NCBI RefSeq assembly: GCF_010672525.1
Contig: NZ_JAAHGH010000008.1
Coordinates: 135,607 to 199,606, forward strand
DNA: 64,000 nt
Direction: 5' to 3'
Source: Okeania sp. SIO2B3
GTDB taxonomy: Bacteria; Cyanobacteriota; Cyanobacteriia; Cyanobacteriales; Microcoleaceae
Below are positions 35,842 to 57,671 of the stretch, one piece after another (within the stretch, counting starts at the first letter, position 1; each line of letters opens with the position of its first letter). The position numbers were made by a program, and so were the translations under genes. The notes under the pieces were generated by a model. That model saw only the letters and a program-made list of their open reading frames with translations. It ran no database searches and was not told the origin of the DNA.

Positions 35842-37659
35842 ATGAGTGAGACAGTGAAATATTCTACCCTAATAGACCTACTTCAGACTTTATCAGCAGA
35901 ACAACCGGAAAAACTAGCATACACTTTTTTGGTTGACGGTAAAAAAGAAGGGGAAAACTTTACCTATGCTTCACTAGAGCATCGAGTACGAGCTATTGCA
36001 GCATTGCTACAAAAACATGAAGTCAAAGGAGAGCGAGGTTTACTACTCTATCCACAAGGACTAGAAGCAATAGCAGCTTTTTGTGGCTGTCTATACTCTG
36101 GAGTTATCGCAATTCCAGTACCTCCTCCAGAAGCAGGTCGTCTCAAACGAACTTTGCCTAGACTCAGAGCGATAGTTCAAGATGCTCAAGCTTCCATAGT
36201 TCTGACAACGGCCACAATTATTTCCCTTGTAGAAGAAGTGGCTGATGAATTTCCTGAGTTCGAGACAATGCGCTGGATAGATACTGAATCTGTCGATCTA
36301 GAAATAGCTCAGGAATGGAAAGATCCAGGTATTACTGGTGATACACTGGCTTATTTGCAGTATACCTCTGGTTCTACTTCTACTCCAAAAGGGGTAATGC
36401 TGACCCACAAAAACTTGATTCACCACTTAAGCTATTTACAGAGAGCTTGTGGGTACACGCCAGAAAGCAAAACTATTACCTGGATGCCTTTCTTCCACGA
36501 TTATGGGTTAGTGGAAGGAATGATGGAACCCCTATACAATGGAACTCCATGCTACATAATGTCCCCATTCTCATTTGTGAAGCAACCCCTGAGATGGCTG
36601 CAAGCTCTGTCAAATTACAAGGCGACCCACTCTCAAGCACCTAACTTTGCTTATGACCTTTGTGTTCGACGAGTTAAGCCAAAACAACTATCTACTTTAG
36701 ACCTAAGTAATTGGGAAGCAGCAGGTAATGCGGCGGAACCTATTAACCCAAAAGTTATGGAGAGTTTCTACGGGACTTTCTCAGCTTGTGGTTTTCGTTG
36801 GAATGCTTTTGCTCCATGTTATGGACTAGCAGAAGATACTTTATTGGTTTCAGCCAAATCTAAACTCACAGATCCGGTACTTTGCACCATAGATGCAACA
36901 GCTCTAGTAGAAAAAAATAAAATTGTAGAAGTGTCTCCTGATGCAACAGGGGTAAGAGCTTATCCATCTTGTGGTCGCTTAGTTTGTGAAACTCAGGTAG
37001 CTATTGTTAATCCAGAAACTTTAGCAAAATGTGCTACTGATGAAGTGGGAGAGATTTGGGTATCAGACCCCAGTGTAGCTCAGGGCTACTGGGAACGTCA
37101 GGAAGCTACCAAAGAAACATTTCAAGCTTACATCAAAGATAGTGGAGAAGGTCCGTTTTTGCGGACTGGAGACCTGGGATTTATGAAAGATGGGGAGTTG
37201 TATATTACAGGTAGGATTAAAGATTTAATTATTATCCGAGGTACAAATCACTATCCCCAAGATATTGAGTGGACAGTACAACAGGTTCACCCGGCACTTC
37301 GTCCAGATTATGGTGCTGCTTTTTCAGTCGAAGTTAGGGGTGATGAACATTTAGTTATTGTTCAAGAGGTAGAGCGTCGTACTCAAGATTTGGATACGGA
37401 GAAAGTAATCAATGATATCCGCCAAGCTGTTTCAGAAGACCATGAATTACAAGCTTATGCTGTAATTTTGGCTAAACCAGGAAATATTCTCAAGACTGCT
37501 AGTGGCAAGATTCAACGTCGTGCTTGTCGTTCCAATTTTTTGGCCGGAACCCTAGACGTGATATCTGACTGGAGTGAAAATCCTCAACTAACCTCCAAGT
37601 ATCGAAAGTTACAAGAAGAAGTTGAGTCATTAGCATCCCAAATGAAAAATAGCCCGTAG
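35842..37659 (+). CDS. Fatty acyl-AMP ligase (FAAL)
   Basis: The protein has 605 residues of the ANL superfamily. It shows P-loop YTSGSTSTPKGVMLTH (about 173-188), WMPFFHDYGLVEGMMEPLY, NAAEPINPKVMESF (usually NGAEP), APCYGLAEDTL, LRTGDLGFM, GRIKDLIIIRGTNHYPQDIE and the catalytic-lysine segment KTASGKIQRRACR (about 555). The RGxNHYPQDIE form and the HDYGLV motif are characteristic of FAALs. These activate fatty acids as adenylates and load them on an acyl carrier protein rather than CoA. The carrier at 39478-39885 is the obvious partner. The stop codon abuts a 19-bp palindrome, and the next gene starts 44 bp on, so co-transcription is likely. Confidence 0.93.
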   Translation: MSETVKYSTLIDLLQTLSAEQPEKLAYTFLVDGKKEGENFTYASLEHRVRAIAALLQKHEVKGERGLLLYPQGLEAIAAFCGCLYSGVIAIPVPPPEAGRLKRTLPRLRAIVQDAQASIVLTTATIISLVEEVADEFPEFETMRWIDTESVDLEIAQEWKDPGITGDTLAYLQYTSGSTSTPKGVMLTHKNLIHHLSYLQRACGYTPESKTITWMPFFHDYGLVEGMMEPLYNGTPCYIMSPFSFVKQPLRWLQALSNYKATHSQAPNFAYDLCVRRVKPKQLSTLDLSNWEAAGNAAEPINPKVMESFYGTFSACGFRWNAFAPCYGLAEDTLLVSAKSKLTDPVLCTIDATALVEKNKIVEVSPDATGVRAYPSCGRLVCETQVAIVNPETLAKCATDEVGEIWVSDPSVAQGYWERQEATKETFQAYIKDSGEGPFLRTGDLGFMKDGELYITGRIKDLIIIRGTNHYPQDIEWTVQQVHPALRPDYGAAFSVEVRGDEHLVIVQEVERRTQDLDTEKVINDIRQAVSEDHELQAYAVILAKPGNILKTASGKIQRRACRSNFLAGTLDVISDWSENPQLTSKYRKLQEEVESLASQMKNSP

Positions 37660-37678
37660 GGGCGAATGGCATTCGCCC
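37660..37678. repeat. Palindromic short repeat between FAAL and ACAD genes
   Basis: GGGCGAATGGCATTCGCCC, one base shorter at the centre than the copy at 10958-10977. It begins right after the FAAL stop codon. Confidence 0.75.
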
Positions 37679-37703
37679 ATACAAAAAATTTAGGAGATTT
37701 AGC

Positions 37704-39506
37704 ATGGATAAACTCAAGCAATATTGGGTAGCTGAAGAGTTAGAGCGTGCTCTTGGCGATCCAGAAAATCCAGACAGTACAATGTCTTTTAAGAGAGTAA
37801 TTGAAATTGATGAGAGTGAAGAATTTCCACATCAGGAAATTGAATGGCTCTATAATTGGAAGCTACAACATCACTATATCCCTGTTAATTGTGGGGGGGA
37901 GTTTACTTCTTTTGAAGAGTTTGTGGCCTTCGTTAGAGTTTTGTGTAGACGCGACCAAACAATTGGAATTGCTTTTACTACCATGTTTTGGTCTTTTATT
38001 ACCTGGATGGCAGGTACAGAGGAACAAAAGCAAAAGTTAGCAACTTATATTAAAGATGAACACGGGACAATGTGCCTTGGTTATTCAGAGAAGGAACATG
38101 GTGCTGACCTAATTGGTGGAGATTTGACCGCAACAAAGGTTCCTGGAGGTTATCTACTTAATGGGGAAAAGTGGCCGATAAATCGCGCAACTATTTCTGG
38201 AGTATCTTATATATTAGCAAAGACTGACCAAGAGGATGGAGGAGCTAGAGGTCTGTCTTTATTTATGGTAGAAAAAAGCCGACTCGATCCAGCAAATTAC
38301 TACAATTTACCAAAAATTCTTACCCACGGAATTCGAGCTTCTGATATGAGTGGCATAGGTTTTAAGGATTGCTTTGTTCCCGAAGATATGTTGATCAAAG
38401 GGGAAGGAGCAGGTCTAGAAGTAGCTCTGAAAGGATTTCAAATTACTCGAACTTTATGTGCAGCTTTTTCTCATGGTGCGGCTGATACAGCTTTAAGAAC
38501 TACACTAAAATTTGCTATTAATCGGGTCATTTACAATAAAACAGTTTTTGACATTCCTCAACCTAGGAAAATTCTGGTAGATGCTTTTTTAGACCTATTA
38601 ATTTGTGATTGTGAAACTATTGGAGCAGCAAGAGGATTTCATGTTATTCCTGGACAATTTAGTGTTTGGGCAGCAGTGGTGAAATATTTTGTTACTGTTC
38701 AGTTAGAAACAATGATTAATAATATTTCATCAGTGTTAGGTTCTCGCTTTTATATGCGAGAAGAACATGACTGGGGAATATTCCAAAAAGTGCTGAGAGA
38801 TAATTCAATTATTAGTGTATTTGATGGCAGTACAACTGTTAATTTGCACGCTCTAATTTTACAGTTTCGTCAGTTAACAAAACATCGTTCTCGACGTAAT
38901 TCTGCTAAGATGGAAGGAATTAAATCTCGTCTAGAAATCATCTTTTCCTTGGAGAAACAACTGCCTACTTTTGAACCAGAAAAACTGGAAATTACAGGGC
39001 GGGGTGCTGATGATGCTTTACAAGGATTAGAAATTGCGTTAGAACAGTTAAAAGATTTAAAAACTGATAATTTAAACACTAAAGTTTTAGAGCAAATTAC
39101 TGCACTGACTGAGTGTGTTATTGCGGAAGTAAACGCTCACGATGAACAAATTGCTAATTCAGCATTTGAGTTTGGTCACAACCAGTCACCAGAATTATTT
39201 GAAATAGCGAAAAATTACTGTGCTTTACACGCTGCTGCTGCGTGTGTGCATATGTGGATTTATAATCGCGAAATATTGGGTGAGTTTTTTGCAGGTGGTG
39301 AATGGTTGGTACTGTGTTTAAATCGTTTACTGCAACCTTTTGGGCATTCACAAAAAGTAGACCAATTATATTGGGAAAAAGTTACTCAAGAAATGCTCAA
39401 ACTTTATAACGAAAATAAAGTATTTTCTATTGTTCCTTTTCAACTAGCACAAACTCAAAAACAGGAGAATAAAACAAATGCAAGTTCAGAACTCCAGCAC
39501 GCTTAA
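37704..39506 (+). CDS. Acyl-CoA dehydrogenase-like flavoprotein, probably acting on acyl-ACP
   Basis: The protein has 600 residues, about 200 longer than usual acyl-CoA dehydrogenases owing to a C-terminal helical extension (about 420-600). Recognisable parts are CLGYSEKEHGADLIGGDLTA (flavin/substrate region), 'GEKWPINRA', a middle beta domain and 'VFDGSTTVNLHALILQF' near 372. The last is where acyl-CoA dehydrogenases carry (Y/F)EGT with the catalytic Glu in the MCAD subgroup; Asp stands there instead. The ribosome site TAGGAGATTTAGC precedes ATG. Its start lies 44 bp after FAAL and its end overlaps the ACP start by 29 bp, indicating translational coupling. In FAAL pathways such enzymes introduce a 2,3 double bond in the carrier-bound acyl chain; that role is inferred here. 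Confidence 0.88.
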   Translation: MDKLKQYWVAEELERALGDPENPDSTMSFKRVIEIDESEEFPHQEIEWLYNWKLQHHYIPVNCGGEFTSFEEFVAFVRVLCRRDQTIGIAFTTMFWSFITWMAGTEEQKQKLATYIKDEHGTMCLGYSEKEHGADLIGGDLTATKVPGGYLLNGEKWPINRATISGVSYILAKTDQEDGGARGLSLFMVEKSRLDPANYYNLPKILTHGIRASDMSGIGFKDCFVPEDMLIKGEGAGLEVALKGFQITRTLCAAFSHGAADTALRTTLKFAINRVIYNKTVFDIPQPRKILVDAFLDLLICDCETIGAARGFHVIPGQFSVWAAVVKYFVTVQLETMINNISSVLGSRFYMREEHDWGIFQKVLRDNSIISVFDGSTTVNLHALILQFRQLTKHRSRRNSAKMEGIKSRLEIIFSLEKQLPTFEPEKLEITGRGADDALQGLEIALEQLKDLKTDNLNTKVLEQITALTECVIAEVNAHDEQIANSAFEFGHNQSPELFEIAKNYCALHAAAACVHMWIYNREILGEFFAGGEWLVLCLNRLLQPFGHSQKVDQLYWEKVTQEMLKLYNENKVFSIVPFQLAQTQKQENKTNASSELQHA

Positions 39507-39885
39507 TACTGAAGCAAAAACAGAAAGTTCCCCTTTAGAAATCTTACAAAAGTGGATTGCTGAAAAGTTAGCAGAACAATTGAATGTTGATAAAAGTACT
39601 ATCGAATTTACCGAACCTTTAACTCGTTATGGTTTAGACTCAATTGATGCCGTAACTCTAGTTGGTGAGCTGGAAGATGAACTAGAATTAGAATTACCTT
39701 CTACTTTATTTTGGGATTATCCAACTATAGAAAAATCTGCTGAATATTTAGTTTCTGAGTTTGATATTTCTGAGGCATTAGAAAACTTGGAAAGCTCTGA
39801 AGAAACAACAGAAGAAGCTGAAAAAACTGCTGAAAAATCTGGTAAAGGTTGGGGTGGTTTTTGGAAGGGAGTAAGTGGTTCATAA
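39478..39885 (+). CDS. Acyl carrier protein with C-terminal extension
   Basis: The protein has 135 residues. The carrier domain spans about 18-100 with the phosphopantetheine serine in YGLDSIDAVTLV (about Ser60). EDELELELPSTLFWDYPTIE is typical of carriers that follow FAALs. After the domain comes a Glu/Thr-rich linker and a short Gly/Trp-rich end (KGWGGFWKGVSG). It overlaps the dehydrogenase gene by 29 bp in another frame, and an AGGAGAATAAAAC site inside that gene serves as ribosome binding site. It presumably carries the acyl chain from FAAL through the dehydrogenase to the acyltransferase. Confidence 0.92.
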   Translation: MQVQNSSTLNTEAKTESSPLEILQKWIAEKLAEQLNVDKSTIEFTEPLTRYGLDSIDAVTLVGELEDELELELPSTLFWDYPTIEKSAEYLVSEFDISEALENLESSEETTEEAEKTAEKSGKGWGGFWKGVSGS

Positions 39886-39916
39886 AAGAACTGAAGAAAC
39901 CTAGGAGAAAAGTCTT

Positions 39917-40256
39917 AGTTATGTAAGCATTTCCTGCGGACTGCTACGCAAACAGCTATTAGCAGTCAGCACTTCCCTGGGGGATGCGCTCGCATTCAGC
40001 AATATAGCAGAAGGCAGAAGGCAGAAGGCAGAAAGCAGAAGGAAAAATCTTACCTGGTCTAAGTTAATGACTCTTGAACTGTTCTAACCTTTGCTTCAAC
40101 TGGTATAATATTCTGCTTTTGAGGGCAGGGTTGAAATTAAAATAGACTTGACAACTTTTGTTGTAAGATTTAATCTGGGCTGAATTAATACAGCTTTGAA
40201 CGTTTACCAAAAGGAATAGCTAATAGCTGATAGCTGATGGCTCACGGCTGAATTTT
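39917..40256. repeat. Dispersed repeat R4, long copy, between ACP and MBOAT genes
   Basis: It begins GTAAGCATTTCCTGCGG and contains 'aaaatagacttgacaacttt' and 'acagctttgaacg', close to the element at 45103-45310, and ends near 'ggctgaatttttac'. It includes simple cagaaggcagaagg repeats and recurrent tagctgatagctgat. It separates the ACP gene from the MBOAT gene. Confidence 0.55.
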
Positions 40257-40447
40257 TACTTATTTATACTAATGATTTTTAGTATAGATTAAGACTTGAT
40301 CTTCAGAAAATTAAAAATCTTAGTTACCAATAAAAAATTGCTTTTGGTAACTAAAAAATATTTCAATATTTCAGAGATTGACAAATACCTCATACCATAA
40401 TTTATTGGGATAGGTCGCTATCAAGAATAAGAGGAGGAAATAGTTAA

Positions 40448-41908
40448 TTGAATTTTTCTGATTTTTCCTTCTGGTGGGTGCTGCTGATTTTTAGCTTGCC
40501 TTTCTTCACCATCCGCGCTCTAGGAAAAAGGTTAAATTTCTGGCAAGATAATTTTGATACCATCGGCTTGATGGTATTATCACTAACATTATTTTTAAAT
40601 GCTAATTTAAAAAGTTTTGCCGTCTTTATATTCGAGGTGATTTTCAACTACATAATAGTGCGACTAATGTTGCAAAGACGTGGTTGGGAGTCAAGGGCGA
40701 TCGCTACATTTTTAATAGTATTTGATGTAGCGGTATTAGCATACTTTAAATATCTTACCTTTTTTGTAGAAGATGTAGTAGGTTTAGTAGTCGGGGGAAT
40801 GCCTCCAAATTGGGAACAAAGTTTTCCTTTACCAGTATTTAATAGAATTCCTCCAGGGATTTCTTTTTATACTTTTCAGATGGTGGCATTTGTTGTAGAT
40901 TCTTTTACAGCTAAAAAGAAAAAGCCAATTAATTTTATAGATTACGTAAACTTTATTGCATTTTTCCCCCAAATTGTAGCAGGTCCAATCGAAAGACGTA
41001 AACAATTATTACCCCAGTTAGAATCTTTTAAATTTAAATTTACTGTAGAAAACTTTGAATTAGGTTTGCGATGGTTATCTCTAGGTTTATTTATGAAATT
41101 TGTTCTAGCAGATAACATTACTCCATATATAGACCTACAACAAGCAACAAATGCTTTATTAGTTTGGTTTCATGCCTTTTTGTTTACTTTAAGAATATAT
41201 TTTGACTTTGCTGGATACAGCTTTATGGCTGTTGGTATCGCTAGAATTTTAGGAGTTAAACTAGAATTAAATTTTCTGGCACCCTATACTTCTGTCAGTA
41301 TTCAAGAATTTTGGCGACGTTGGCACATTACTCTGAGTAACTGGTTTAGGGACTATGTCTTTATCCCACTAATGGGTGCAAATAAAAAGTGGGCACCATT
41401 CTATTTATTTATAACTTTTACTCTTTCAGGCTTTTGGCACGGGGCAGCCTGGAATTTTATTTTATGGGGAGCTTACCATGGGGCATTATTATTGGTACTC
41501 AGATATGCCGGGAGACCTTTTCAAAGATTTGTGGGTAGATGGACTTCTAAAACTGAGTTAGTTTCCTGGGCCTTGACGTTTATGGCCGTGACTCTAGGCT
41601 GTTTATTTTTTATGGAAACTAATATTAGTAGGTTGGGTACTAAGTTAGTAACTTTAGTGACACCAGGAGCTTATTCAATTTCTGGGGCGATCGATGCTTT
41701 TAGCTCTTATAGCATAAATGAGGGTTGGGCTCTAGTTTTTACTTTAGCTGTGGCGATAGGGACATTATTTTTAGAACATTTGGCAGTTTGGCAGCAGCGA
41801 GATGAGTATGAATTTTTGTTATCTCCTTGGATATCAAGAGGTCTGCTAGGTTTAACTATTTTGCTGGGGGCAACTATTCCTTCTGCATTTATTTACTTTG
41901 AGTTTTAA
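40448..41908 (+). CDS. MBOAT-family O-acyltransferase (AlgI/DltB-like)
   Basis: The protein has 486 residues with a TTG start behind a strong GAGGAGGAAATAG ribosome site. It has about eleven membrane segments. MBOAT marks are PPGISFYTFQMVAFVVD (about 137), FFPQIVAGPIER (about 174), SIQEFWRRWHITLSNWFRDY (about 290) and the catalytic His in SGFWHGAAWNFILWGAYHG (about 337). AlgI/DltB-type MBOATs transfer acyl groups from a donor, in DltB from a carrier protein, to extracellular polymers or alcohols. Placed after FAAL, dehydrogenase and ACP, it is the best candidate to use the acyl-ACP as donor. The acceptor is unknown. Confidence 0.9.
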   Translation: MNFSDFSFWWVLLIFSLPFFTIRALGKRLNFWQDNFDTIGLMVLSLTLFLNANLKSFAVFIFEVIFNYIIVRLMLQRRGWESRAIATFLIVFDVAVLAYFKYLTFFVEDVVGLVVGGMPPNWEQSFPLPVFNRIPPGISFYTFQMVAFVVDSFTAKKKKPINFIDYVNFIAFFPQIVAGPIERRKQLLPQLESFKFKFTVENFELGLRWLSLGLFMKFVLADNITPYIDLQQATNALLVWFHAFLFTLRIYFDFAGYSFMAVGIARILGVKLELNFLAPYTSVSIQEFWRRWHITLSNWFRDYVFIPLMGANKKWAPFYLFITFTLSGFWHGAAWNFILWGAYHGALLLVLRYAGRPFQRFVGRWTSKTELVSWALTFMAVTLGCLFFMETNISRLGTKLVTLVTPGAYSISGAIDAFSSYSINEGWALVFTLAVAIGTLFLEHLAVWQQRDEYEFLLSPWISRGLLGLTILLGATIPSAFIYFEF

Positions 41909-41999: not shown

Positions 42000-42018
42000 G
42001 GGCGAATGCTATTCGCCC
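42000..42018. repeat. Palindromic short repeat upstream of the sulfotransferase gene
   Basis: GGGCGAATGCTATTCGCCC. An ATG inside it (42006) opens a longer frame into the sulfotransferase, but that start is rejected in favour of 42078. Confidence 0.75.
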
Positions 42019-42077
42019 CTACTGACTTGTGCGTAGCGCTATGGAGTTTATTTGTTCAAAGTTTTCAAGTTTGGCCT

Positions 42078-43001
42078 ATGAATTTACCAAGTTTCCTTGT
42101 TATAGGTGCAGCAAAATCAGGTACTACCTCTGTTTGGTCATACTTGAAGCAACATCCTCAAGTTTTTATGTCCAAACCAAAAGAACCAAACTTCTTCATT
42201 TTTGAAGGGGTAAAGTTACCATATTATTCAGGACCTGATGATGAAGAGGCGTTGATCCGAAAGCTATATCAAGGTACTATTACTGACTTTGAGACTTATC
42301 AAAAACTTTTTCAAGATGTGGGAGAAGTGAAAGCTATTGGTGAAGCTTCGGTGCGCTACTTATATTTTCCTCAAGCTGCGGAAAGGATTAAAAAGTATAT
42401 CCCTGATGCCAAGATGATTATTATGCTACGCAACCCAGTAAATAGATTATATTCTCAGTATGTGATGAATGTTCGCGACTTACTGGAACCTTTGCCACTA
42501 AGTGAAGCCATTACTGCAGAAGATGAGAGAATTAGTAAAAACTGGGACTGTGCTTGGCACTATACTAAGCTAAGTAGTTATTACAATCAGGTAAAGCTAT
42601 ACTTAGATTTATTTTCTCCAGAGCAAATTAAGGTAATTATTTATGACGATTTTTGTCGAGATACTATAGGCATTATGCAGGAATTATATCGCTTTATTGA
42701 TGTAGATGATAGCTTTATACCAAACTGCTCTAAACGTAAATTGTCAGGATATTGGCCTAAAAGTTTGGTTCTCCATCGTTTGCTTAAGGAGCCGAATGTT
42801 ATTAAATTAACTTTAGAAAAGGCTTTACCTAAAAAGACATACAATAAAGCTTTAAAGTTTTTTCAGAAATCGAATAAAGGTGTTATACCGCCTATTCCGA
42901 CTACTGTTAAAGATGATTTAAAACAGTTATTTCGGAAGGATATTTTAAATTTGCAAGAACTGTTGGGGCGTGACATACCATGGTTAACAGATGAGGTTTG
43001 A
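42078..43001 (+). CDS. PAPS-dependent sulfotransferase
   Basis: The protein has 307 residues from the ATG at 42078 (MNLPSFLVIGAAKSGTTSVW). The 5'-phosphosulfate loop is GAAKSGTTSVWSYLKQHP at the very N-terminus, and the 3'-phosphate motif is MIIMLRNPVNRLYSQY (about 113-128). KPKEPNFF and GEASVRYLYFP are typical of bacterial relatives of heparan/NDST-type sulfotransferases. It would move sulfate from PAPS to a hydroxyl or amine of a small molecule, lipid or glycan in the cytoplasm. The longer frame from 42006 starts inside a palindromic repeat and adds no conserved residues. It is 170 bp downstream of the MBOAT gene on the same strand. Confidence 0.88.
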   Translation: MNLPSFLVIGAAKSGTTSVWSYLKQHPQVFMSKPKEPNFFIFEGVKLPYYSGPDDEEALIRKLYQGTITDFETYQKLFQDVGEVKAIGEASVRYLYFPQAAERIKKYIPDAKMIIMLRNPVNRLYSQYVMNVRDLLEPLPLSEAITAEDERISKNWDCAWHYTKLSSYYNQVKLYLDLFSPEQIKVIIYDDFCRDTIGIMQELYRFIDVDDSFIPNCSKRKLSGYWPKSLVLHRLLKEPNVIKLTLEKALPKKTYNKALKFFQKSNKGVIPPIPTTVKDDLKQLFRKDILNLQELLGRDIPWLTDEV

Positions 43002-43516: not shown

Positions 43517-44761
43517 GTGGAAACTGGAAAAATATCTGAAACAGTAAAAGGAAGTAATGTGCCTACAAAAATTTGTATTTTAGGCGGTGGCTTCGGCGGT
43601 CTTTATACAGCATTGTATTTACAAAGCTTTCGGGGATTTAAACAGAAAAACTGTCAAATAACTTTAATAGATATACAGGATCATATTGCATTTACTCCTT
43701 TACTTTATGAGGTGATTACAGATGAACTGAAAACTTGGGAAATAGCTCCATCTTTTGATAAATTACTCAAAAATAAAGATATTCAGTTTTGCCAAGATGA
43801 AGCGAAAGATATTGATTTTCAAGCTCGCGAAGTTAAACTTTTAGAGGGAGGAAGTTTACCTTATGATTATTTAGTTATTGCTGTGGGTGTCACTAATGGA
43901 AAAATGCCAAATGGTGCAGAAAATGTTTTGACATTCAGAACTTTAGCTGATATTCAACGCCTCGAACAAAAGTTACAAAGTTTGGAAAATTCTAGCCAAG
44001 AAAAAATTCGGGTAAGTATTGTTGGTGGGGGTCCGAGTGGGGTAGAGTTAGCAGGAAAAATAGCAGATAGATTAGGGAAAAGGGGAGAAATACGCCTGAT
44101 AGAAAGAGGAAAAGAAATTCTGAAAACTTTTACTCCTGCTACTCGGAAAAATGCTCAACGTGCTCTAGATAAAAGAAATGTTTTAATCAGTTTACAGACG
44201 GGTGTGAATGCTATTGAAGCTGACAAAGTTACTATTTTACAAGCTGGAGAAACTGCTGTTATTCCCACTGATTTAATATTATGGACTGCGGGAGTTCAAA
44301 TGAGAGAGTGGGTGAAAAATTTGGATTGTTCTCATAATTCTAGAGGTCAACTTATTTGTGAGCCAACTTTACAGTTAGTTGACTATCCAGAAGTATTTGC
44401 ATTGGGAGATATTGCAGAGATTTCATACCCCAATAATAAACAACTTCCAGCAACAGCTCAAGTTGCTTATCAACAAGCAAGTCAAGCAGCAAAAAATCTG
44501 TGGAAAAGTTTAAATAATAAACGCCCAAGACCGTTTCATTATTTACATTTGGGAGAAATGATTACTTTAGGGATGAATACGGCAGCTATTTCTAGTTTTG
44601 GTATTAGTTTATCTGGCTCTTTGGCTGCTTTTTTTAGGTTAGGAGTTTATATTCAAAGATTACCTACTTTATCTCATAAAATTCAAGTTATTCGCCATAG
44701 ATTAAAAGTTTGGTGGAAAAATTTATTTGGCAAATCAGCTAGTCACAAAAAATTGAAATAA
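43517..44761 (+). CDS. Type II NAD(P)H dehydrogenase (NDH-2 family)
   Basis: The protein has 414 residues with a GTG start. The FAD-binding motif is ICILGGGFGGLYTALYLQ (about 18-35), the NAD-binding motif is VSIVGGGPSGVELAGKIADR (about 160-179), and the second FAD segment is FALGDIAEIS (about 294-303). 'VAYQQASQAAKNLW' and a basic C-terminal helix are also present. Such flavoproteins oxidise NADH or NADPH and reduce quinone at the membrane surface. It lies in the middle of the acylation/sulfation cluster, but nothing in the sequence ties it to that pathway. Supplying or removing electrons for the dehydrogenase is only a possibility. Confidence 0.88.
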   Translation: METGKISETVKGSNVPTKICILGGGFGGLYTALYLQSFRGFKQKNCQITLIDIQDHIAFTPLLYEVITDELKTWEIAPSFDKLLKNKDIQFCQDEAKDIDFQAREVKLLEGGSLPYDYLVIAVGVTNGKMPNGAENVLTFRTLADIQRLEQKLQSLENSSQEKIRVSIVGGGPSGVELAGKIADRLGKRGEIRLIERGKEILKTFTPATRKNAQRALDKRNVLISLQTGVNAIEADKVTILQAGETAVIPTDLILWTAGVQMREWVKNLDCSHNSRGQLICEPTLQLVDYPEVFALGDIAEISYPNNKQLPATAQVAYQQASQAAKNLWKSLNNKRPRPFHYLHLGEMITLGMNTAAISSFGISLSGSLAAFFRLGVYIQRLPTLSHKIQVIRHRLKVWWKNLFGKSASHKKLK

Positions 44762-44953
44762 GTAGATAATTTATAATTTTAATAAAGTCAATAACTATAG
44801 CGTTTTCAGATGATATGTCAAACAATAGTTAGTTATTTACTAACAGTAAAAAGTGTGGCAAACCTTCTTACCTGTTGCCTGCTGCCTAAAAGCTACCATG
44901 TTTTTTACCCAACTCAAATGAAATTACTATCAATAATTAAAATGACAGTAAGT

Positions 44954-45385
44954 ATGGAAAAGGAAAAAAATAACTTAAGTGCCAAACTGGAAAAATTGTT
45001 TGGTTTAGATTTGCGATCGCTTGCCGTATTTAGAGTGGGTTTGGCATTAGTAATTCTTGTATAATTAATTATCAGTGTTGGAGATTTAACATCTCATTAT
45101 AGGTAAGCATTTCCTGCGGAATACTGCGCAAACATCAACAAGATTCTCTCCTTCAAGACAGTGTTTGAATTAATATAGACTTTAATGGCAAAGGAGCAAA
45201 CTTTTGTAGCAAGAGAATTAATAAAGCTTTGATCTTAAACTAAAAGCAATAGCTGTTAACGCAGTTCCGACCATAGGAGGCTAACTGATTGCTGACCGCT
45301 GAATGCTTACCATTATAGTGATGCCTCGGACATTACTCAAGGAAATTTCAAATCCTTTTAATTGGTCAATAAATTCAATATTATA
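44954..45385 (+). pseudogene. HTTM gene fragment, interrupted by a MITE
   Basis: From ATG at 44954 it reads MEKEKNNLSAKLEKLFGLDL then SLAVFRVGLALVILV, matching the start of the intact HTTM-DCC protein at 47415. A stop (45062) replaces Asp, but homology continues (LIISVGDLTSHYSD), jumps over a 208-bp insertion, and resumes with RTLLKEISNPF and WSINSI up to about 45385. Only about the first 80 codons are left. It is a partial tandem duplicate of the downstream gene. Confidence 0.9.
45103..45310. mobile_element. MITE of 208 bp (R4 family) with 8-bp target duplication
   Basis: The ends GTAAGCATT and AATGCTTAC are inverted repeats. CATTATAG is present directly before (45095-45102) and after (45311-45318). 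Removing the element restores the HTTM reading TSHYSDA, which aligns with RSLYSDA of the intact gene. The interior matches the repeat at 39917-40256. No ORF is present. Confidence 0.9.
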
Positions 45386-45453
45386 CTTTTACTAAGATAG
45401 CTTATTTAGTAGATGCTTATCATGGGGAAACAAGAGAGACTAATTAGGATTTA

Positions 45454-45559
45454 TATCATTTCCGGATCATCAGTTATCAAAAAACTTTCTCCCTTAAGTG
45501 CCTTTTCTTTCCTTCTGCCTCTAGCCACTATAAGTGTAAGTATTCAAGCAAACATGATA
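45454..45559. repeat. Decayed relative of the 142-bp MITE at 17461-17602
   Basis: TATCATTTCCGG at the left, AACATGATAT at the right, and a shared internal AAAAAACTTTCTCC and 'taagtattcaa'. The right end is degenerate. Confidence 0.5.
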
Positions 45560-45727
45560 TGACTTATAGTTTATTTAGTTGTATATTCAACTATTTATTT
45601 GAAACTACATTAATTAATATATTAACATATTTTTATTGGTTAAAGATGATTATTTGCTATTAATTTAAGCTTGTGATTTATGTTAGTATTATTGGTGAAG
45701 TATAGTTATAAAAATGGTAAAAACTCA

Positions 45728-47023
45728 ATGAGTCAAAAAACAAATTCTCCATCTCCCCTTCTGATCATTTATTGGATTTCCTCCATAGTTTTTTTAAGCT
45801 TTATTTTAGGAACACTATTTTATGAGTTTAAAATATGGCCGTATGGTTCATTGAGAAAAGCCTACGCTGCTGCTAGAGCGTGGAAAGAAAAATTAGAGCC
45901 AGTAGATCGTTATCAAACAGGTTTTTTTGGTCCATCTCCTCGCCAAGGCAGTGGGGTATTGGAATTTAATCAACAAAAAGCTTACAAAGGTTATACTGTG
46001 TTCACTTCTAGTCATGAACAAAAAGCATTTCTCCTGTCAATGGAGGGTCAGATAGTACATGAATGGGAAATCCCTTTCTCAAAAGTTTGGTCATCATCTC
46101 CACCGCATATCAAAGTTCCTAACTCCGATGATTTCGTTGTTTTAGCAAAGGCTCATATCTATCCTAATGGAGATCTTTTAGTTATTCATCAAAGTATGAA
46201 TGATACTCCTTATGGATATGGACTAGCTAGAGTAGACAAGAATTCTCAGGTCATCTGGAAATATCCTTACTATGTCCATCACGATGTTACTGTTGGTAAC
46301 GATGGAAAAATTTATACCCTTACACAAGAATTAGTTAGAGATAACATTGATTGGTATGACGATTTTATAATTGTTCTATCACCTGATGGGAAAGAACTTA
46401 AGAAACTTTCAGTGGCAAAAGCCTTTCGAAATTCAGAGTATTCAGGGACTATTGAAAACATTCGCAATTGGGATCCTCTTCATACTAATGCAGTGGAAGT
46501 TCTCAATGAAAATATAGCTGACAAGTTTCCTTTATTTAAGAAAGGTCAGGTGTTAATTTCTCCGAGAAATCTTAACGCAATTGCTGTGGTTGATCTAGAG
46601 GAGGAAAAAGTTGTATGGGCAACTACAGGAGCATGGCGACAGCAACATGATCCTGATTTTTTGCCAAACGGAAATATCCTTTTATTTGATAATAAGGGTC
46701 ATATTGGAGAGGGTGGAAAATCAAGGGTGATGGAAATTAACCCCAAAACGATGGAAATTTCTTGGCAATACACAGGGGATCAAGATAATATTTTTGATAG
46801 CCCATTTGGTTCGTCGCAGCAGCGATTACCAAATGGCAATACTCTCATTACTCAAACCCAGTTTGGACGAATTTTTGAAGTTACATCCGATCAAAAAATC
46901 GTCTGGGAATTTATGAGTCCATTTAGGTCTCCAAATGATGAGCAAATTGTAGGAACTGTCTATCAAGCACAGCGTTTCAAACCAGAGTTTTTTAAGTTTA
47001 AATTTAATTTAGTCAACGAGTAA
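45728..47023 (+). CDS. Arylsulfotransferase (ASST) family protein, membrane anchored
   Basis: The protein has 431 residues from the ATG at 45728; an ATG at 45680 would add 16 residues. A single N-terminal membrane segment (about 10-32, LLIIYWISSIVFLSFILG) is followed by a six-bladed propeller-like region. Its conserved features include HIYPNGDLLVIHQ, VHHDVTVGNDGKIYTL, DPLHTNAVEVLNE, RQQHDPDFLPNGNILLFDN and RLPNGNTLITQ, the pattern of the ASST family. Members of this family transfer sulfate between phenolic esters in the periplasm, or act as binding proteins. The His residues are present, but the eukaryote/cyanobacterial branch is not biochemically defined. It lies between a decayed and an intact HTTM gene. 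Confidence 0.82.
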   Translation: MSQKTNSPSPLLIIYWISSIVFLSFILGTLFYEFKIWPYGSLRKAYAAARAWKEKLEPVDRYQTGFFGPSPRQGSGVLEFNQQKAYKGYTVFTSSHEQKAFLLSMEGQIVHEWEIPFSKVWSSSPPHIKVPNSDDFVVLAKAHIYPNGDLLVIHQSMNDTPYGYGLARVDKNSQVIWKYPYYVHHDVTVGNDGKIYTLTQELVRDNIDWYDDFIIVLSPDGKELKKLSVAKAFRNSEYSGTIENIRNWDPLHTNAVEVLNENIADKFPLFKKGQVLISPRNLNAIAVVDLEEEKVVWATTGAWRQQHDPDFLPNGNILLFDNKGHIGEGGKSRVMEINPKTMEISWQYTGDQDNIFDSPFGSSQQRLPNGNTLITQTQFGRIFEVTSDQKIVWEFMSPFRSPNDEQIVGTVYQAQRFKPEFFKFKFNLVNE

Positions 47024-49708: not shown

Positions 49709-50473
49709 TTGGTATTATTTAATTCTTACGTTTTTATCTTTTGTTTTTTACCTTTAACTCTGATTATATTCTTTGGTTTAACGAGATTTGGTTTAATCAA
49801 GGCTGCAAAAGTTTGGTTGACAGCTAGTTCATTTGCTTTTTACGGTTATTGGAATGTTGCTTATTTGCCTTTGCTAATAATTTCAATTTTGTGGAATTAT
49901 CGAATGGGGAAATTTATTGCTCAGGCTAAACCTGAAAGTAAGCAAGCAAATGTTTTACTTTGGGTAGGTATAGCTGTTAATTTAGCCATAATTTCTTACT
50001 ATAAATATGCGAATTTTTTCTTGGATACTTTTAATTCAATAGTTTCTACAAATTTGAATGCTGGGCAAATTATTTTGCCTTTGGCTATTTCTTTTTATAC
50101 TTTTGGTTAGAGCGCAAAATTTTCAGGATGGTCTAGATATTTTACAGACAATGCCAGGCTTGAATGGAGTAGCTATACCAGGGGAAACTCAAGGTAAATT
50201 ATCTGTGTTAACTAATTTTGGTTTTCAGCTTTTGGTTTTCAGCTTAAATCTTGGAAAGATATGAGTTATCTACCGGAATTTTTTGGTAGTAAAATTTTCT
50301 CAATTTTGACTTTGATAGGCTTAACTTTTTCTGTAAGTTTCCTACCTAATACTCAGGAAATTTTGGCAAAGTTGAAACCTACTTGGTGGTGGGCAGTTTG
50401 GATTGGTGTTTTGAAAAGTGTAGCTTTATTATCGCTGAATCGTGTGTTTGAGTTTCTTTATTTCCAATTTTAA
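49709..50473 (+). pseudogene. MBOAT acyltransferase gene with a large internal deletion
   Basis: Residues 1-133 (from TTG at 49709) are a standard AlgI-type start: NSYVFIFCFLPLTLIIFFGL, WLTASSFAFYGYWNVAYLPL and ILPLAISFYTFG. The reading then runs into stops, and from 50261 shows only the extreme C-terminal part (MSYLPEFFGSK, TWWWAVWIGVLKSVALLSLN, FEFLYFQF). The central part, including the catalytic His motif (about 300 codons), is gone. It is a second MBOAT, of the longer AlgI type, different from the intact one at 40448-41908. Confidence 0.85.
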
Positions 50474-50499: not shown

Positions 50500-51289
50500 A
50501 TGAGTATAAATAATCAACTTAGTTCTACTTACTCCCAAGCTTCATCTACCCCAAAATCAGAAAAATCTGTATTAAATTAAGAGAAGATACCGCAGATATA
50601 ATTGGCTGTTTTTATTGTCGGCTCTACTACCTGTAGTAGCAGTAGGAAGATTCAATATTGTTGCAGATCCTTATGATGTATTTAATACTCCAAATTTCTT
50701 AGGAATAAATCATTCAAAACCTCGGAAAGATAATAGCGATCGCCTCTTTAAAGCAATTGATATTATTCGCATTAAACCTGTAACAGTTTTGATGGGTTCA
50801 TCGAGAACGAAACGCGCTATAGATCCTAACTATCCAGCTTTAAAAAATCATCAACCAGCTTATAATGATGAATTAAAGAAAATAGTAGATTTGTGTCAAG
50901 AAAATAACATCAAGTTAATACTATTTATTTCTCCTTCTCATGCAACTCAATGGTAAGTTATTAGAGCAACAGGTGAGTGGTCAACTTTTGAAGAATGAAA
51001 ACGTGAAGTGGTAAAAATTACTCCTGTATTTGATTTTTCTGGGTACAACAGTATCACAACTGAACCTATCCATAATGATATGGAAAACTATAGAGATAAT
51101 TCTCATTACACAAAAAAAGTGGGCGATTTAATTCTCAACCGGATTTTATTTTATCAGCAGGAAGAAGTTCCAGAATATTTTGGAATTTTAATTAATTCAG
51201 AAAATATTGAATCTCATCTCACAAAAATTCGTCAAGACCGTGAAGTTTGGGCTAAAAATCATCCTGATGAAGTGAAGTTAGTAAAATAA
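50500..51289 (+). pseudogene. SGNH/AlgJ-DltD-like gene with stops and an internal deletion
   Basis: A start at 50500 reads MSINNQLSSTYSQASS and soon stops. From 50615 the frame shows a membrane-near LLPVVAVGRFNIVADPYDVF and the nucleophile motif VLMGSSRTKRAIDP (Ser in GSS). About 100 residues are then missing before DELKKIVDLCQENNIKLILF and ISPSHATQW. The last piece (51008-51289) carries WDFSGYNS-like FDFSGYNSITTE and NYRDNSHYTKKVGDLILNRI, with the Asp/His pair of the SGNH triad. Proteins of this kind are obligate partners of AlgI/DltB-type MBOATs, and this one directly follows the decayed MBOAT. Confidence 0.8.
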
Positions 51290-51386
51290 ACTAAACAAAA
51301 GTTTGATGAAAAAATAAGTAAAAAAAAATCAATAAAAGATAGCTTTAATTACTAAAATAAATTTTTATTTGCAAGTACATATTACC

Positions 51387-53102
51387 ATGAATAATCGACT
51401 ATCTATTAACCCATTGTTAAGGGAAGTTTTGATATCTTTTGTACTCTTATTAGGGTGCTCTATAATCATTACTGAATATATGTTTCGTAACGGAATTATT
51501 TTTGAATCCCATGATATTGGGCCTCACCTTCAATGGTTAACTCATTTTTCAAGACATCTTGCAGAAGGAATTTGGTATCCTAGGTGGCTTGCTGATACTA
51601 ACTATGGATACGGTAGTCCTGATTTTGTATTTTATCCTCCTGGAGTTTACTACATTGGCTCCCTGATCAAACTAACTGGAATAGATATTCAGAAAACAGT
51701 TGCTTTGCTATTTTTATTAGCATCTTTATTGGCCGGTTTTAGTTGTTATGTTTATGGTCGAAATAAATGGGGTAAGAAAGTTGCTTTATTAGCTGCATTA
51801 GCTTATATGACATCTCCTTATGTAGTCCTAAATATATATCAAAGAGCTGCTTTACCAGAGACATTTGCTGTAGCATTATTTCCTTTGGGATTATTTTTGA
51901 CAGACCAAGCTTTTGGCAAACCAAAATGGAGAATAGGTCTTGCTTTGTTTTTCACAGTTTTATCTTTGACACATGCACCTAGTCTACTTCTTTACACTAT
52001 TTTTTGGTTTTTATATGTAATTTGCTTCTTACTAAAATATTCTTGGAAAGCTATTGTAATGACCATTGGTTCTGGAATGGTAGGTTTAGGAATAGCATCC
52101 TTCTACTTATTACCAGCTGTTCTGGAAAAGAATTTAGTAAATGTAAATAGTATGAGAAAAGTTGCTGGAGGATTTCAAGGCAATTTGATTTGGACTCCTG
52201 TCAGCTGGGCTAATGGATTTATGAGGAATCAAATAACAGATATTTTTACATATCAACTATTAATTATTATTGTTTTGATAATAATAATATTTTTCTGCTG
52301 TCGGCAGGAACCTAAAAAAATGAAAGAAGCTATTCTTTGGCTGATTTTTTTAGGGACTTTATCATTTCTGATGACTTATCCCTCTGTAAAGATTTGGCAA
52401 AGCAGCAGAACATTGCAAATGGTTCAATTTCCTTGGAGACTCATGGGAATGTTTTCGTTTGGAGTAGTTGCTATGCTGGCAATTGCTATTAATAGAGTTT
52501 TGAATAGTAAATCACAACTCAAGTTAATTTTATCTTTAATTTTAGCAGTGATTTTTCTAGCTAATGCTGGTTATTCCTATAATTTATCTAGAACTTTATC
52601 AGGTTTTAATAACCCTGGCAATCTACAGAAAGCTGCACTTAACCCTAAATATAAGTCAGAAGATTTCTTTAATGTCATCAAGCTTGCTCTTGATGAAAAA
52701 GAAATAAGTAAATTACAAGGTAGAGTTGAGTACCTACTATTAACACCAGAGGGAGTAGCTGCCAAACCTTTACTCGATCAACCCCCTGTCTCTATTGTTC
52801 AAGGAAAAGGATTAATAGAAGTCGATCAATGGAGTAGTTACAATAGAATTTTTAGTGTCTCAGCCACAGAAGATACTAATTTAAAAATAGGAACTTTCTA
52901 CTATCCAGCTTGGCGTTTATATGTAAATAATCTACCCTATCCAATGATTGTATCTAATGATGGAACAATTGAACTCAAGCTAAATCCGGGTGACTATACA
53001 GTTAGACTTTTTTATTCTTGGACTTATCCATTTTTAGTAGGTATGATTACCAGTATTATTAGTATTATTATACTTGGGATCTACTGGTATAAATTTACTT
53101 GA
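51387..53102 (+). CDS. GT-C type polytopic membrane protein (PTPS-related family)
   Basis: The protein has 571 residues from the ATG at 51387; a TTG at 51369 is rejected. About eleven membrane segments fill residues 10-415. The first extracytoplasmic loop has ESHDIGPHLQWLTHFSRHLA and GIWYPRWLADTNYGYGSPDF, then FYPPGVYY, which is the pattern of the '6-pyruvoyl-tetrahydropterin synthase-related' membrane family with GT-C glycosyltransferase topology. The Asp in SHDIG would be the catalytic-loop acid. Residues about 420-545 are a soluble domain before a last membrane helix. It likely transfers a sugar from a polyprenyl-phosphate donor, as an inference from fold and from the GT2 genes downstream. 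Confidence 0.75.
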   Translation: MNNRLSINPLLREVLISFVLLLGCSIIITEYMFRNGIIFESHDIGPHLQWLTHFSRHLAEGIWYPRWLADTNYGYGSPDFVFYPPGVYYIGSLIKLTGIDIQKTVALLFLLASLLAGFSCYVYGRNKWGKKVALLAALAYMTSPYVVLNIYQRAALPETFAVALFPLGLFLTDQAFGKPKWRIGLALFFTVLSLTHAPSLLLYTIFWFLYVICFLLKYSWKAIVMTIGSGMVGLGIASFYLLPAVLEKNLVNVNSMRKVAGGFQGNLIWTPVSWANGFMRNQITDIFTYQLLIIIVLIIIIFFCCRQEPKKMKEAILWLIFLGTLSFLMTYPSVKIWQSSRTLQMVQFPWRLMGMFSFGVVAMLAIAINRVLNSKSQLKLILSLILAVIFLANAGYSYNLSRTLSGFNNPGNLQKAALNPKYKSEDFFNVIKLALDEKEISKLQGRVEYLLLTPEGVAAKPLLDQPPVSIVQGKGLIEVDQWSSYNRIFSVSATEDTNLKIGTFYYPAWRLYVNNLPYPMIVSNDGTIELKLNPGDYTVRLFYSWTYPFLVGMITSIISIIILGIYWYKFT

Positions 53103-53857: not shown

Positions 53858-55459
53858 ATGAAAAATCCGCTGAAACATACAACCGTAATTCTATCAGATA
53901 AGTGGCTTTTATTCGGATCAATATTATTGTTTCTATCTCTAATCTTTGGTTTATTCATTAGGATTGTTGGTGTTGTTCAATTTTCTATTCTATCTGGCGA
54001 TCAAATACGAGATGCTTACGCAACTATGGAAATTTGGCAAGGGAAATTTCCTACTCTCGGACCTCACTCAGCTTGGAAATTTATTTGGGGAGATTTTGTT
54101 TACCTACCTCCCCTCTATTTCTATTTAGTCTTCCCCTTCACTATTTTAAGCAGTCAATTATCAATTCAAGCTTTTCCTGACGCGCTTTTCACTTTTCTAA
54201 GTATTCCTTTACTTGTTGCAGTAATCTACCAATTATTAGAAGGAATAGAGACTTCAAAAAGATTTTTTATCGCTAGTTTAATTGGCTTTTGGTATAGTGT
54301 TTTGGTCAGAAATATGGGTATGAATTCTGGCGGTAGTCTAGCAGGTAATCCTGGTTCTATTCCATTTTTTCTTCTTCTCTTTATTTGGCTATATAACTAT
54401 CAGCTAAGTCAGCCTAAAAATTATATTAATTCTGTTTTATCTTGGATAGGATACGGTATAGTCTTAGCTATTCTAGTAAATTTACATTTCTCTGCTCTTT
54501 TTGTAATGCCAGTAGTTTTTATAATTAGCTGTATCTATTGGTTTTTCAAAAATAATAGGAACCCGAAATGCTTAGTATTATGTTTATATGCTGTGCTGTC
54601 TTCTATTATAACCTTATTACCATATTGGATAGGTGAAGTACAACGTAACTGGATAAATACGATTGGAATTATTTCCCTTGTTAGGAATGTAAGTAGCGAT
54701 GAAGAATATTCGTTAAATTTGTGGGAAAGAGTAATAGTTATCATCAAATCCTACTTCAGTCTGGGGAACGATATTTACTTTATGGCTGATTCTAGAAGAC
54801 TATTAATGTTTTCTATTTTGTCAGTTACTTTTCTGAGTCTTATTTTGTTAGTTGGATTACTTAAATTTAGAGGTAATAAGAATATTTACCTGATTGTATT
54901 GGCAACTTCAATTCTATTTTTTTTCGCCTATTCATCCGCTGATCAAGAGAAAACCTATAACCCTGTATTTTACAAATTATTAATATATTGTTTGCCTTTA
55001 TTTTTGACCGCAGTGAGTATAGCTTATTTGAATATATCTAAACCATTAGAAAAAATAATTTTAATTATCATCGTATTTGCATTGTGTTTTTCTATCTTCA
55101 ATAATCTGAGACTAAGTATTAACTACATTAACAGCCACATCGGTAAGAATCAACTACTAGCAACTAATACTATCGCAGAAGTTCTTAATACTCTTCCAGA
55201 AAGGTCAACAATTTGCGCTCCAAAAGGATTATCTAAAAATTTACGAGTCTATGAATATACCGATCAGTATGTAACAGCAAAAAACTTAAAATTCTCAGAT
55301 AATTGCACTGCTGGTGATTATTATATGTCTAGTAAATTTGGCTTAAATCCAAGTACTTTTAAGGTTTACTCTTCTAAGAAAATGAAGAAGACTGTGAATG
55401 ACAAAACCATGACAATAATCAAAGAGGGTAGCACTTACTATCTCTATCAAATTAATTAA
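53858..55459 (+). CDS. GT-C family membrane glycosyltransferase-like protein
   Basis: The protein has 533 residues with ten or more membrane segments. After the first helix the loop has LSGDQIRDAYATMEIWQGKF, where Asp in GDQIRD matches the catalytic acid of ArnT/PMT-like (GT39/GT83) enzymes, and then GPHSAWKFIWGDFVYLPPLY. A C-terminal soluble tail of about 90 residues (NTLPERSTICAPKGLSKNLR) follows. The expected role is transfer of a sugar from a polyprenyl carrier to a lipid or protein outside the plasma membrane. It starts 40 bp after the truncated GT-C copy. Confidence 0.75.
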   Translation: MKNPLKHTTVILSDKWLLFGSILLFLSLIFGLFIRIVGVVQFSILSGDQIRDAYATMEIWQGKFPTLGPHSAWKFIWGDFVYLPPLYFYLVFPFTILSSQLSIQAFPDALFTFLSIPLLVAVIYQLLEGIETSKRFFIASLIGFWYSVLVRNMGMNSGGSLAGNPGSIPFFLLLFIWLYNYQLSQPKNYINSVLSWIGYGIVLAILVNLHFSALFVMPVVFIISCIYWFFKNNRNPKCLVLCLYAVLSSIITLLPYWIGEVQRNWINTIGIISLVRNVSSDEEYSLNLWERVIVIIKSYFSLGNDIYFMADSRRLLMFSILSVTFLSLILLVGLLKFRGNKNIYLIVLATSILFFFAYSSADQEKTYNPVFYKLLIYCLPLFLTAVSIAYLNISKPLEKIILIIIVFALCFSIFNNLRLSINYINSHIGKNQLLATNTIAEVLNTLPERSTICAPKGLSKNLRVYEYTDQYVTAKNLKFSDNCTAGDYYMSSKFGLNPSTFKVYSSKKMKKTVNDKTMTIIKEGSTYYLYQIN

Positions 55460-55720
55460 ATAAATTATGACTATTGAAAGGGGGATGGACGATGGCACAA
55501 AAGAAAAAATGAAATCTCGTGCCCTAGGTAGTTTTCTATAAAAATCATCCTATTCCTAGTAGAATATGAATATATTTGACAAAGGTAAATTTTTAGGAGA
55601 TATAAGCTTTTTCTGTGGCGATGGGTAATTATTATTTATGGAAAAGTTAATGGTCTTAACTAATAACCAATAAAATTTATTCGGGGTGCTACTGTTAACT
55701 CTATATTGCTTGGGTTTAAT

Positions 55721-57457: not shown

Positions 57458-57671
57458 ATTACTGTTTGTTAATATCCAAAAATAACCAAATAACAAAAAA
57501 TAAAAATTATTCATCAGGAAAATCAGGTGAAAAAAATTAATTAATAAAATCAATCAAATGCTCGAGTTAAAGTAATAAATAAAAATTAAAATAGATAAAC
57601 TCCAAGTTTTAATCCCAGACCGTGATAAACTTATACTAAGTTTTTTGATCAAAAAGTTTAGGTACATAAAA

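Follow-up and report, generated by a model that had tools for sequence, protein, structure and literature searches.

Two kinds of MBOAT-SGNH acylation system are close to the genes described here. Dlt (DltA-DltC-DltB-DltX-DltD), the D-alanine transfer pathway of Gram-positive bacteria, unites an ANL-family ligase, a stand-alone carrier, an MBOAT, an SGNH partner and an FXYXXF tyrosine motif; PatA-PatB, which O-acetylates peptidoglycan, and the AlgI/WssH/CcsH-type pairs have an MBOAT with its own C-terminal FXYXXF and a membrane-anchored SGNH protein. According to PMC12148441, the acyl group is borne by the tyrosine of this motif, in DltX as well as in PatA, where the motif is fused to the MBOAT; the PatA-PatB and AlgI-type pairs are described as using acyl-CoA without a carrier, and MBOAT-SGNH pathways other than Dlt are said to have no such carrier. 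A fatty acyl-AMP ligase (FAAL), an acyl-CoA dehydrogenase-like flavoprotein (ACAD) and an acyl carrier protein (ACP), such as RthH-RthI/J-RthK of rotihibin, form starter sets whose acyl-ACP primes a nonribosomal peptide synthetase (NRPS) or polyketide synthase (PKS). Here we describe a locus in a 64,000-nucleotide stretch of contig NZ_JAAHGH010000008.1 of Okeania sp. SIO2B3 (this whole stretch being called the window), in which the same kind of three-part front end leads instead to an MBOAT (MBOAT1) and, probably through it, to an SGNH partner (SGNH1).

The locus shares with Dlt each of the features named above, and differs from it in having a FAAL for DltA, an extra ACAD, the motif on the MBOAT itself, and two further proteins, NDH and HTTM. 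The cyanobacterial envelope, moreover, is not known to contain teichoic acids. From PatA-PatB and the AlgI-type pairs the locus differs by the ligase and ACP that precede its MBOAT, and among MBOAT-SGNH acylation systems it fits best as a carrier-fed variant with a PatA-like fused motif and a Dlt-like ligase-carrier head. In our judgement the genes probably encode a dedicated transmembrane fatty-acyl relay. With motif and SGNH partner in place, the set is a counter-example in genes to carrier-less MBOAT-SGNH acylation outside Dlt, and it connects the chemistry of the envelope with FAALs, which are familiar from lipopeptides and polyketides. Cyanobacterial exopolysaccharides often bear small amounts of fatty acids and act as hydrophobic adhesives (a review, PMC4500136), and the gene set is a concrete candidate for their fatty acylation; among the papers listed in searches of open-licence PMC literature, titles and abstract beginnings yielded no enzyme for that step and no report of a FAAL or fatty acyl carrier feeding an MBOAT.

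The core genes are intact

The window had been described in a preliminary way from its sequence alone. ORF (open reading frame) and Pfam analysis confirmed the four plus-strand genes and the 29-base overlap between the ACAD and ACP genes reported there (Table 1). Compared with three relatives, FAAL, ACAD, ACP and MBOAT1 showed omega values of 0.05 to 0.22; the four genes are intact, and by these values they are kept under purifying selection. The genome that carries them measures 10.0 Mb, and the closest named relatives are Okeania.

The nearest solved structures of the window ligase, matched over almost its full length in a PDB search, are FAALs (7r7e, the best, with E 2.7e-164; 3kxw, FadD32 and 3pbk), while the DltA model PRK04813 gave 103.6 bits against a cut-off of 476. 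FAAL models and structures fitted the protein far better than DltA did, with no FAAL model reaching its own cut-off, and by these comparisons the ligase is predicted to be a FAAL and not an acyl-CoA ligase.

Conservation of the locus

Using the ACAD as anchor, we scanned the genome_contigs collection (84,980 species), which gave 305 candidate loci, kept the best 80 (79 of them distinct) and compared 76 neighbourhoods including the window, from which L108 to L111 (generic ACADs, 26-28% identity) were excluded. MBOAT1 was present in 50 loci, a count lowered from 51 by leaving out the AlgI-type MBOAT of L096 and including two contigs of one genome (L036 and L037). ACAD and ACP lie upstream of MBOAT1 in 50/50 (ORF calls show this for 48, and tblastn for L082 and L087) and FAAL is present in 37, some of the remaining 13 loci being cut by contig ends, so that the FAAL-ACAD-ACP-MBOAT synteny proposed earlier as a check is conserved. 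Since the same order also occurs in other families and the omega values are low, the four-gene cluster is beyond chance. In many loci SGNH1 is followed by NDH, an HTTM-DCC1 protein, a second MBOAT (MBOAT2) and a second SGNH-like protein (SGNH2).

In a tree of 71 ACADs, from which 10 of 81 ACAD ORFs were left out as shorter than 560 aa, the 49 MBOAT1-linked ACADs all fell within one 61-row clade, and the ten rows outside it are all without MBOAT1 linkage; a second tree left out two long-branch rows. The linkage label requires 6 changes on the tree, because eight Microcystis rows with split genes, together with L035, L051, L066 and L072, lie inside the clade; in the latter four, MBOAT1 was not within the stretch examined. 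Among viral contigs, 72 stretches fitted a pattern and none was a relative, and the 136 plasmid records were all below 60% identity, the ten listed being at 31-38%. Two contigs of metagenome-assembled genomes, L041 (titled Gracilibacteria) and L103 (titled Chloroflexaceae), carry cyanobacterial versions of the cluster and are probably mis-binned.

MBOAT1 carries its own shuttle motif

Every one of the 50 MBOAT1 copies ends in FIYF[E/D/S]F, and all 14 intact MBOAT2 copies end in FLYFQF. As FXYXXF thus sits on the MBOAT itself, a separate DltX microprotein would not be needed. His331 and His293 are invariant in a 30-row MBOAT1 alignment. The only two PDB sequence matches of MBOAT1 are both DltB (6bug and 8jem), and DltB was also the best match among solved folds for its AlphaFold2 (AF2) model. 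This model places extra helices late in the chain, at 423-448 and 460-473, ahead of the motif, which agrees with a pair of additional helices described in PMC12148441. The DltB model TIGR04091 scored 187-192 bits on MBOAT1 (192 in the window) against a cut-off of 375, and 140-159 on ordinary AlgI-type MBOATs; its score was dropped as evidence, because other MBOATs score as well. Since the tests for DltA and DltB both fail and the motif is on the MBOAT, the system is not Dlt. MBOAT1 begins with TTG in 40 of the 50 copies, ATG in 9 and GTG in 1, a conserved weak start.

MBOAT1 might use acyl- or acetyl-CoA, like PatA and AlgI, while the acyl-ACP goes to another member (e.g., HTTM), the two halves then being co-regulated and not one relay. 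The characterized fused-motif MBOATs are indeed described as acyl-CoA users (PMC12148441), and the TIGR04091 score does not discriminate. We nevertheless regard this reading as improbable, since FAALs supply carrier proteins and not CoA (PMC8460268), ACP precedes MBOAT1 in all 50 ACAD-anchored loci, and DltB, which uses a carrier, is the solved MBOAT closest to it.

SGNH1 is the probable partner of MBOAT1

SGNH1 (about 310 aa) is the next gene after MBOAT1 in 29/50 loci. It does not adjoin MBOAT1 in the window; an intact copy lies on another contig of the genome (G000:C46:103055-103975; L114:9041-9976), next to a gene for an FkbM-type methyltransferase, a family that also neighbours MBOAT1/SGNH1 in L049, L058, L068 and L120. 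Given the intact copy, we reject the view that the window system is dead for want of SGNH1 in place. Of 21 further genomes, chosen for their loci, 17 have SGNH1, which is found elsewhere in genomes whose MBOAT1 locus is without it; the other four are G011 (an 83%-complete genome), G010 and G016 (ACAD present only as relics) and G049.

A representative SGNH1 had no Pfam or NCBIfam match, and neither SGNH1, SGNH2 nor HTTM had a PDB sequence match. All 29 aligned SGNH1 rows keep GSG-H close to the N-terminal helix and FADTHYHL towards the end without change. The AF2 model of SGNH1 has a pLDDT of 90; in Foldseek its best PDB fold matches belong to the SGNH esterases, such as rhamnogalacturonan acetylesterase (E 3.7e-4), and OatA ranks 18th. 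Model and invariant motifs together predict an SGNH fold with active-site Ser and His for SGNH1, the triad being assigned from the motif only (Ser61 in the L057 copy). The SGNH pseudogene about 8 kb downstream, noted in the preliminary description, was considered as the partner and rejected: it stands with MBOAT2, and SGNH1 is a separate family by clustering. MBOAT1 is probably served by SGNH1 instead.

The genes occur together across the phylum

Of 291 genomes drawn from the phylum, 14 have MBOAT1, and exactly these 14 also have SGNH1; the same 14 have the orthologues of FAAL (at least 63% identity; next by score 55%) and of HTTM (at least 54%; next 46%), and ACAD occurs in all of them plus one more genome, G042, which has a 48% relative, the counts being taken at thresholds placed at identity gaps, uncorrected for phylogeny, and from 14 genomes that make up 10 genera. 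A second NDH copy (paralogue, E <= 1e-80) was present in 14/14 system genomes and in 8/277 others. In nine of the 14, FAAL, ACAD, MBOAT1 and SGNH1 are spread over at least two places (ten when HTTM is counted), so linkage does not account for the co-occurrence; five of the nine belong to one genus (g46, loci match Microcystis). The layout in G138, for example, is FAAL alone, ACAD-ACP, and MBOAT1-SGNH1-NDH, and in G147 and G183 it is FAAL alone, ACAD-ACP-MBOAT1-NDH, and SGNH1-HTTM. The module thus exceeds four genes and adds SGNH1, NDH and HTTM. Because presence and absence are clear-cut between species, comparison strains exist.

One further genome carries an NDH-HTTM pair (G250:C62:11022-13341; 49% and 44%) and no FAAL, MBOAT1 or SGNH1 orthologues at the thresholds used, and NDH and HTTM may form a module of their own. 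ACAD relics were found in G016:C280 (L135) and G010:C46 (L136), genomes of the same family that are both without SGNH1, and G016 also has an MBOAT1 relic; the system seems to have been lost there as a whole.

The clusters do not generally lead into PKS or NRPS genes

As the preliminary description had it, the window is free of PKS and NRPS genes: a Pfam scan of all 26 ORFs of at least 250 aa found no beta-ketoacyl synthase (KS), acyltransferase (AT) or condensation domain. In the 50 MBOAT1 loci, queries for KS, AT and condensation (two) revealed no PKS/NRPS, with 7/7 positive controls matched; the sole match was a KS in L071, a stand-alone beta-ketoacyl-ACP synthase by NCBIfam. This check took in 20 ORFs longer than 650 aa outside the named families, of which 15 were scanned with Pfam, the window's own was scanned as well, and four are its orthologues (cluster c16); the large ORF (>650 aa) of L048 had no Pfam match. 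Thus, homologous clusters do not always lead into PKS/NRPS genes, the exceptions being G049 within the clade and the distant relatives that feed a PKS (Tumebacillus L100) or an NRPS (Acinetobacter L102).

These exceptions would suit a reading in which FAAL-ACAD-ACP is the starter of a polyketide or lipopeptide made elsewhere, and MBOAT1/SGNH1 is an unrelated, adjacent acetylation pair. We consider this highly improbable: besides the absence of PKS/NRPS genes from the window and the lone KS of the 50 loci, MBOAT1/SGNH1 track FAAL/ACAD through the same 14/291 genomes even where unlinked, and all 49 MBOAT1-linked ACADs fall in one clade.

ACAD and its electron sink

The ACADs of such starter sets, like RthI/J of rotihibin, are regarded as desaturases of the acyl chain (PMC8552735), and by analogy the window ACAD likely desaturates an ACP-bound chain. 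The genome gave 0 matches to a model of the alpha subunit of electron transfer flavoprotein (ETF), which was positive in 10/14 control genomes, so the usual handover of electrons from ACAD is probably closed. As a conjecture, NDH, which we take to be type II NADH dehydrogenase-like, and the HTTM-DCC1 protein could link ACAD to quinone.

Proposed relay

Judging from family and gene order, FAAL would activate a free fatty acid as acyl-AMP and load it on the Ser55-phosphopantetheine of ACP, where ACAD would act on the bound chain, the simplest product being a 2,3-enoyl thioester. From its motif and fold, MBOAT1 would carry the acyl group from ACP across the membrane to its own Tyr483 in FIYFEF. 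The active-site Ser of SGNH1, supplied in this genome from another contig, would receive it there and hand it on to an alcohol outside the cytoplasm, for which a glycan or glycolipid of the envelope is the likeliest candidate. NDH and HTTM-DCC1 may re-oxidize the ACAD flavin via quinone, given the lack of ETF alpha, and MBOAT2/SGNH2 would form a second arm, broken in the window. The dlt-like relay of the preliminary description thus stands strengthened by the synteny, the C-terminal motif, the SGNH partner and the 291-genome pattern, but as something other than Dlt itself, given the missed DltA and DltB cut-offs; its C2 desaturation and surface acceptor we likewise infer.

Several findings weigh against this relay, which is predicted from genes and whose ACAD product and acceptor are putative. 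At the usual catalytic Glu position (Glu376 of medium-chain acyl-CoA dehydrogenase, MCAD), an alignment to MCAD and other ACADs puts Asp374 in the window ACAD and Asp in 68/71 relatives; Asp is also found in the NRPS-linked Acinetobacter rows, and Glu in the PKS-linked L100. The MBOAT1 model is mediocre (pLDDT 76, most of the motif below 50), the resemblance of MBOAT1 to DltB speaks only weakly for use of a carrier because AlgI-type MBOATs score on the DltB model too, and FXYXXF-like ends occur on presumed acyl-CoA-using MBOATs (YIYFDF on the other MBOAT of the same genome, FIYFQF in L096). For SGNH1, TM-scores are low (0.28-0.40 of the query for SGNH matches), some non-SGNH entries rank among the fold matches, and DltD/PatB are not among the 50 matches listed, so SGNH1 is assigned to the superfamily and to no particular subfamily. 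Two partial FAAL hits at 58% fall within the FAAL identity gap (63% to 55%), which adds to the limits of the co-occurrence counts given above. Finally, in G049 (L134:1274-6986, G049:C53) a FAAL-ACAD-ACP set within the MBOAT1 clade is followed by a free-standing condensation-PCP (peptidyl carrier protein) protein, and no SGNH1 was found in that genome; because of this coupling and those of L100 and L102, the front end appears modular and able to serve other back ends.

The acceptor bears on a further alternative, in which the same relay serves a small lipid or metabolite (alcohol, glycolipid or carotenoid glycoside) and the product is released or becomes a membrane lipid. MBOAT acyl acceptors include lipids, and no glycan polymerase is seen in the conserved core. 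FAALs also act in small-molecule pathways (PMC11837247). Glycosyltransferase (GT) or nucleotide-sugar genes, however, lie near the copies in the window, L076, L082 and L120 and lend weak support to a glycan acceptor, and a co-inherited, membrane-anchored SGNH partner together with an FXYXXF end marks envelope-polymer acylation (PMC12148441). We find a small acceptor unlikely.

The relay may be extended, doubtfully, to a carrier-dependent MBOAT-SGNH system that would join Dlt as the second of its kind and be the first to handle fatty acids, in which FAAL, ACAD, ACP, MBOAT1, SGNH1, NDH and HTTM would make a 2,3-enoyl-ACP independently of ETF, with electrons passing to quinone via NDH/HTTM and the enoyl group reaching an envelope glycan by an acyl-tyrosine shuttle. 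If true, this seven-protein machine would give the sheath a reactive or hydrophobic coat.

Downstream arm and rest of the window

The second MBOAT and SGNH pseudogenes noticed earlier downstream of the cluster are real, with deletions, frame changes and, in SGNH2, stops (Table 1); MBOAT2 is intact in 14 compared loci. The relics between NDH and the arylsulfotransferase (ASST)-like gene may stem from a duplicate of this downstream arm that has collapsed.

Table 1. Coordinates of the features in the window
Feature	Position	Strand	Basis and remarks
FAAL, fatty acyl-AMP ligase, 605 aa	35842..37659	+	Pfam AMP-binding and AMP-dom_DIP2-like; omega 0.05-0.07
ACAD-like flavoprotein, 600 aa, C-terminal extension of ~200 aa	37704..39506	+	Pfam Acyl-CoA_dh M/1/N; omega 0.11-0.16
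Acyl carrier protein, 135 aa, Ser55 phosphopantetheine site in GLDSI	39478..39885	+	Pfam PP-binding, motif; omega 0.15-0.22
MBOAT1, 486 aa, TTG start after AGGAGG	40448..41908	+	Pfam MBOAT (PF03062); omega 0.08-0.14
FIYFEF codons, MBOAT1 residues 481-486 with Tyr483; FXYXXF acyl-shuttle motif	41888..41905	+	Ends of MBOAT1 copies; motif function per PMC12148441
Sulfotransferase-family gene, where SGNH1 stands in 29/50 loci	42006..43001	+	Pfam Sulfotransfer_3
NDH, pyridine nucleotide-disulfide oxidoreductase	43517..44761	+	Pfam Pyr_redox_2; recurrent neighbour
HTTM relic (44942-45380) and MBOAT2 relic (45373-45600), both second copies	44942..45600	+	tblastn
ASST-like gene	45680-47023		Between NDH and HTTM
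HTTM + DCC1-like membrane protein, 628 aa	47415..49301	+	Pfam HTTM, DCC1-like
Broken MBOAT2	49709..50473	+	~132-362 missing, frame changes; intact relatives end FLYFQF
Broken SGNH2	50500..51325	+	~123-232 missing, frame change near start, internal stops; intact family alignment
Membrane protein	51369-53102	+	PTPS_related, weak PMT_2
Membrane protein	53858-55459	+	No Pfam match
GT2 genes	55706-56689, 57645-58673		Downstream
AMP-binding ligase-family gene, 497 aa	61377-62870	-	With AMP-binding_C; unrelated to cluster as far as seen

The downstream membrane proteins and GT2 genes possibly form a glycan context, their membership in the system being putative. The sulfotransferase-family gene occupies this place in L033 too, and G016 (L135) has part of it.

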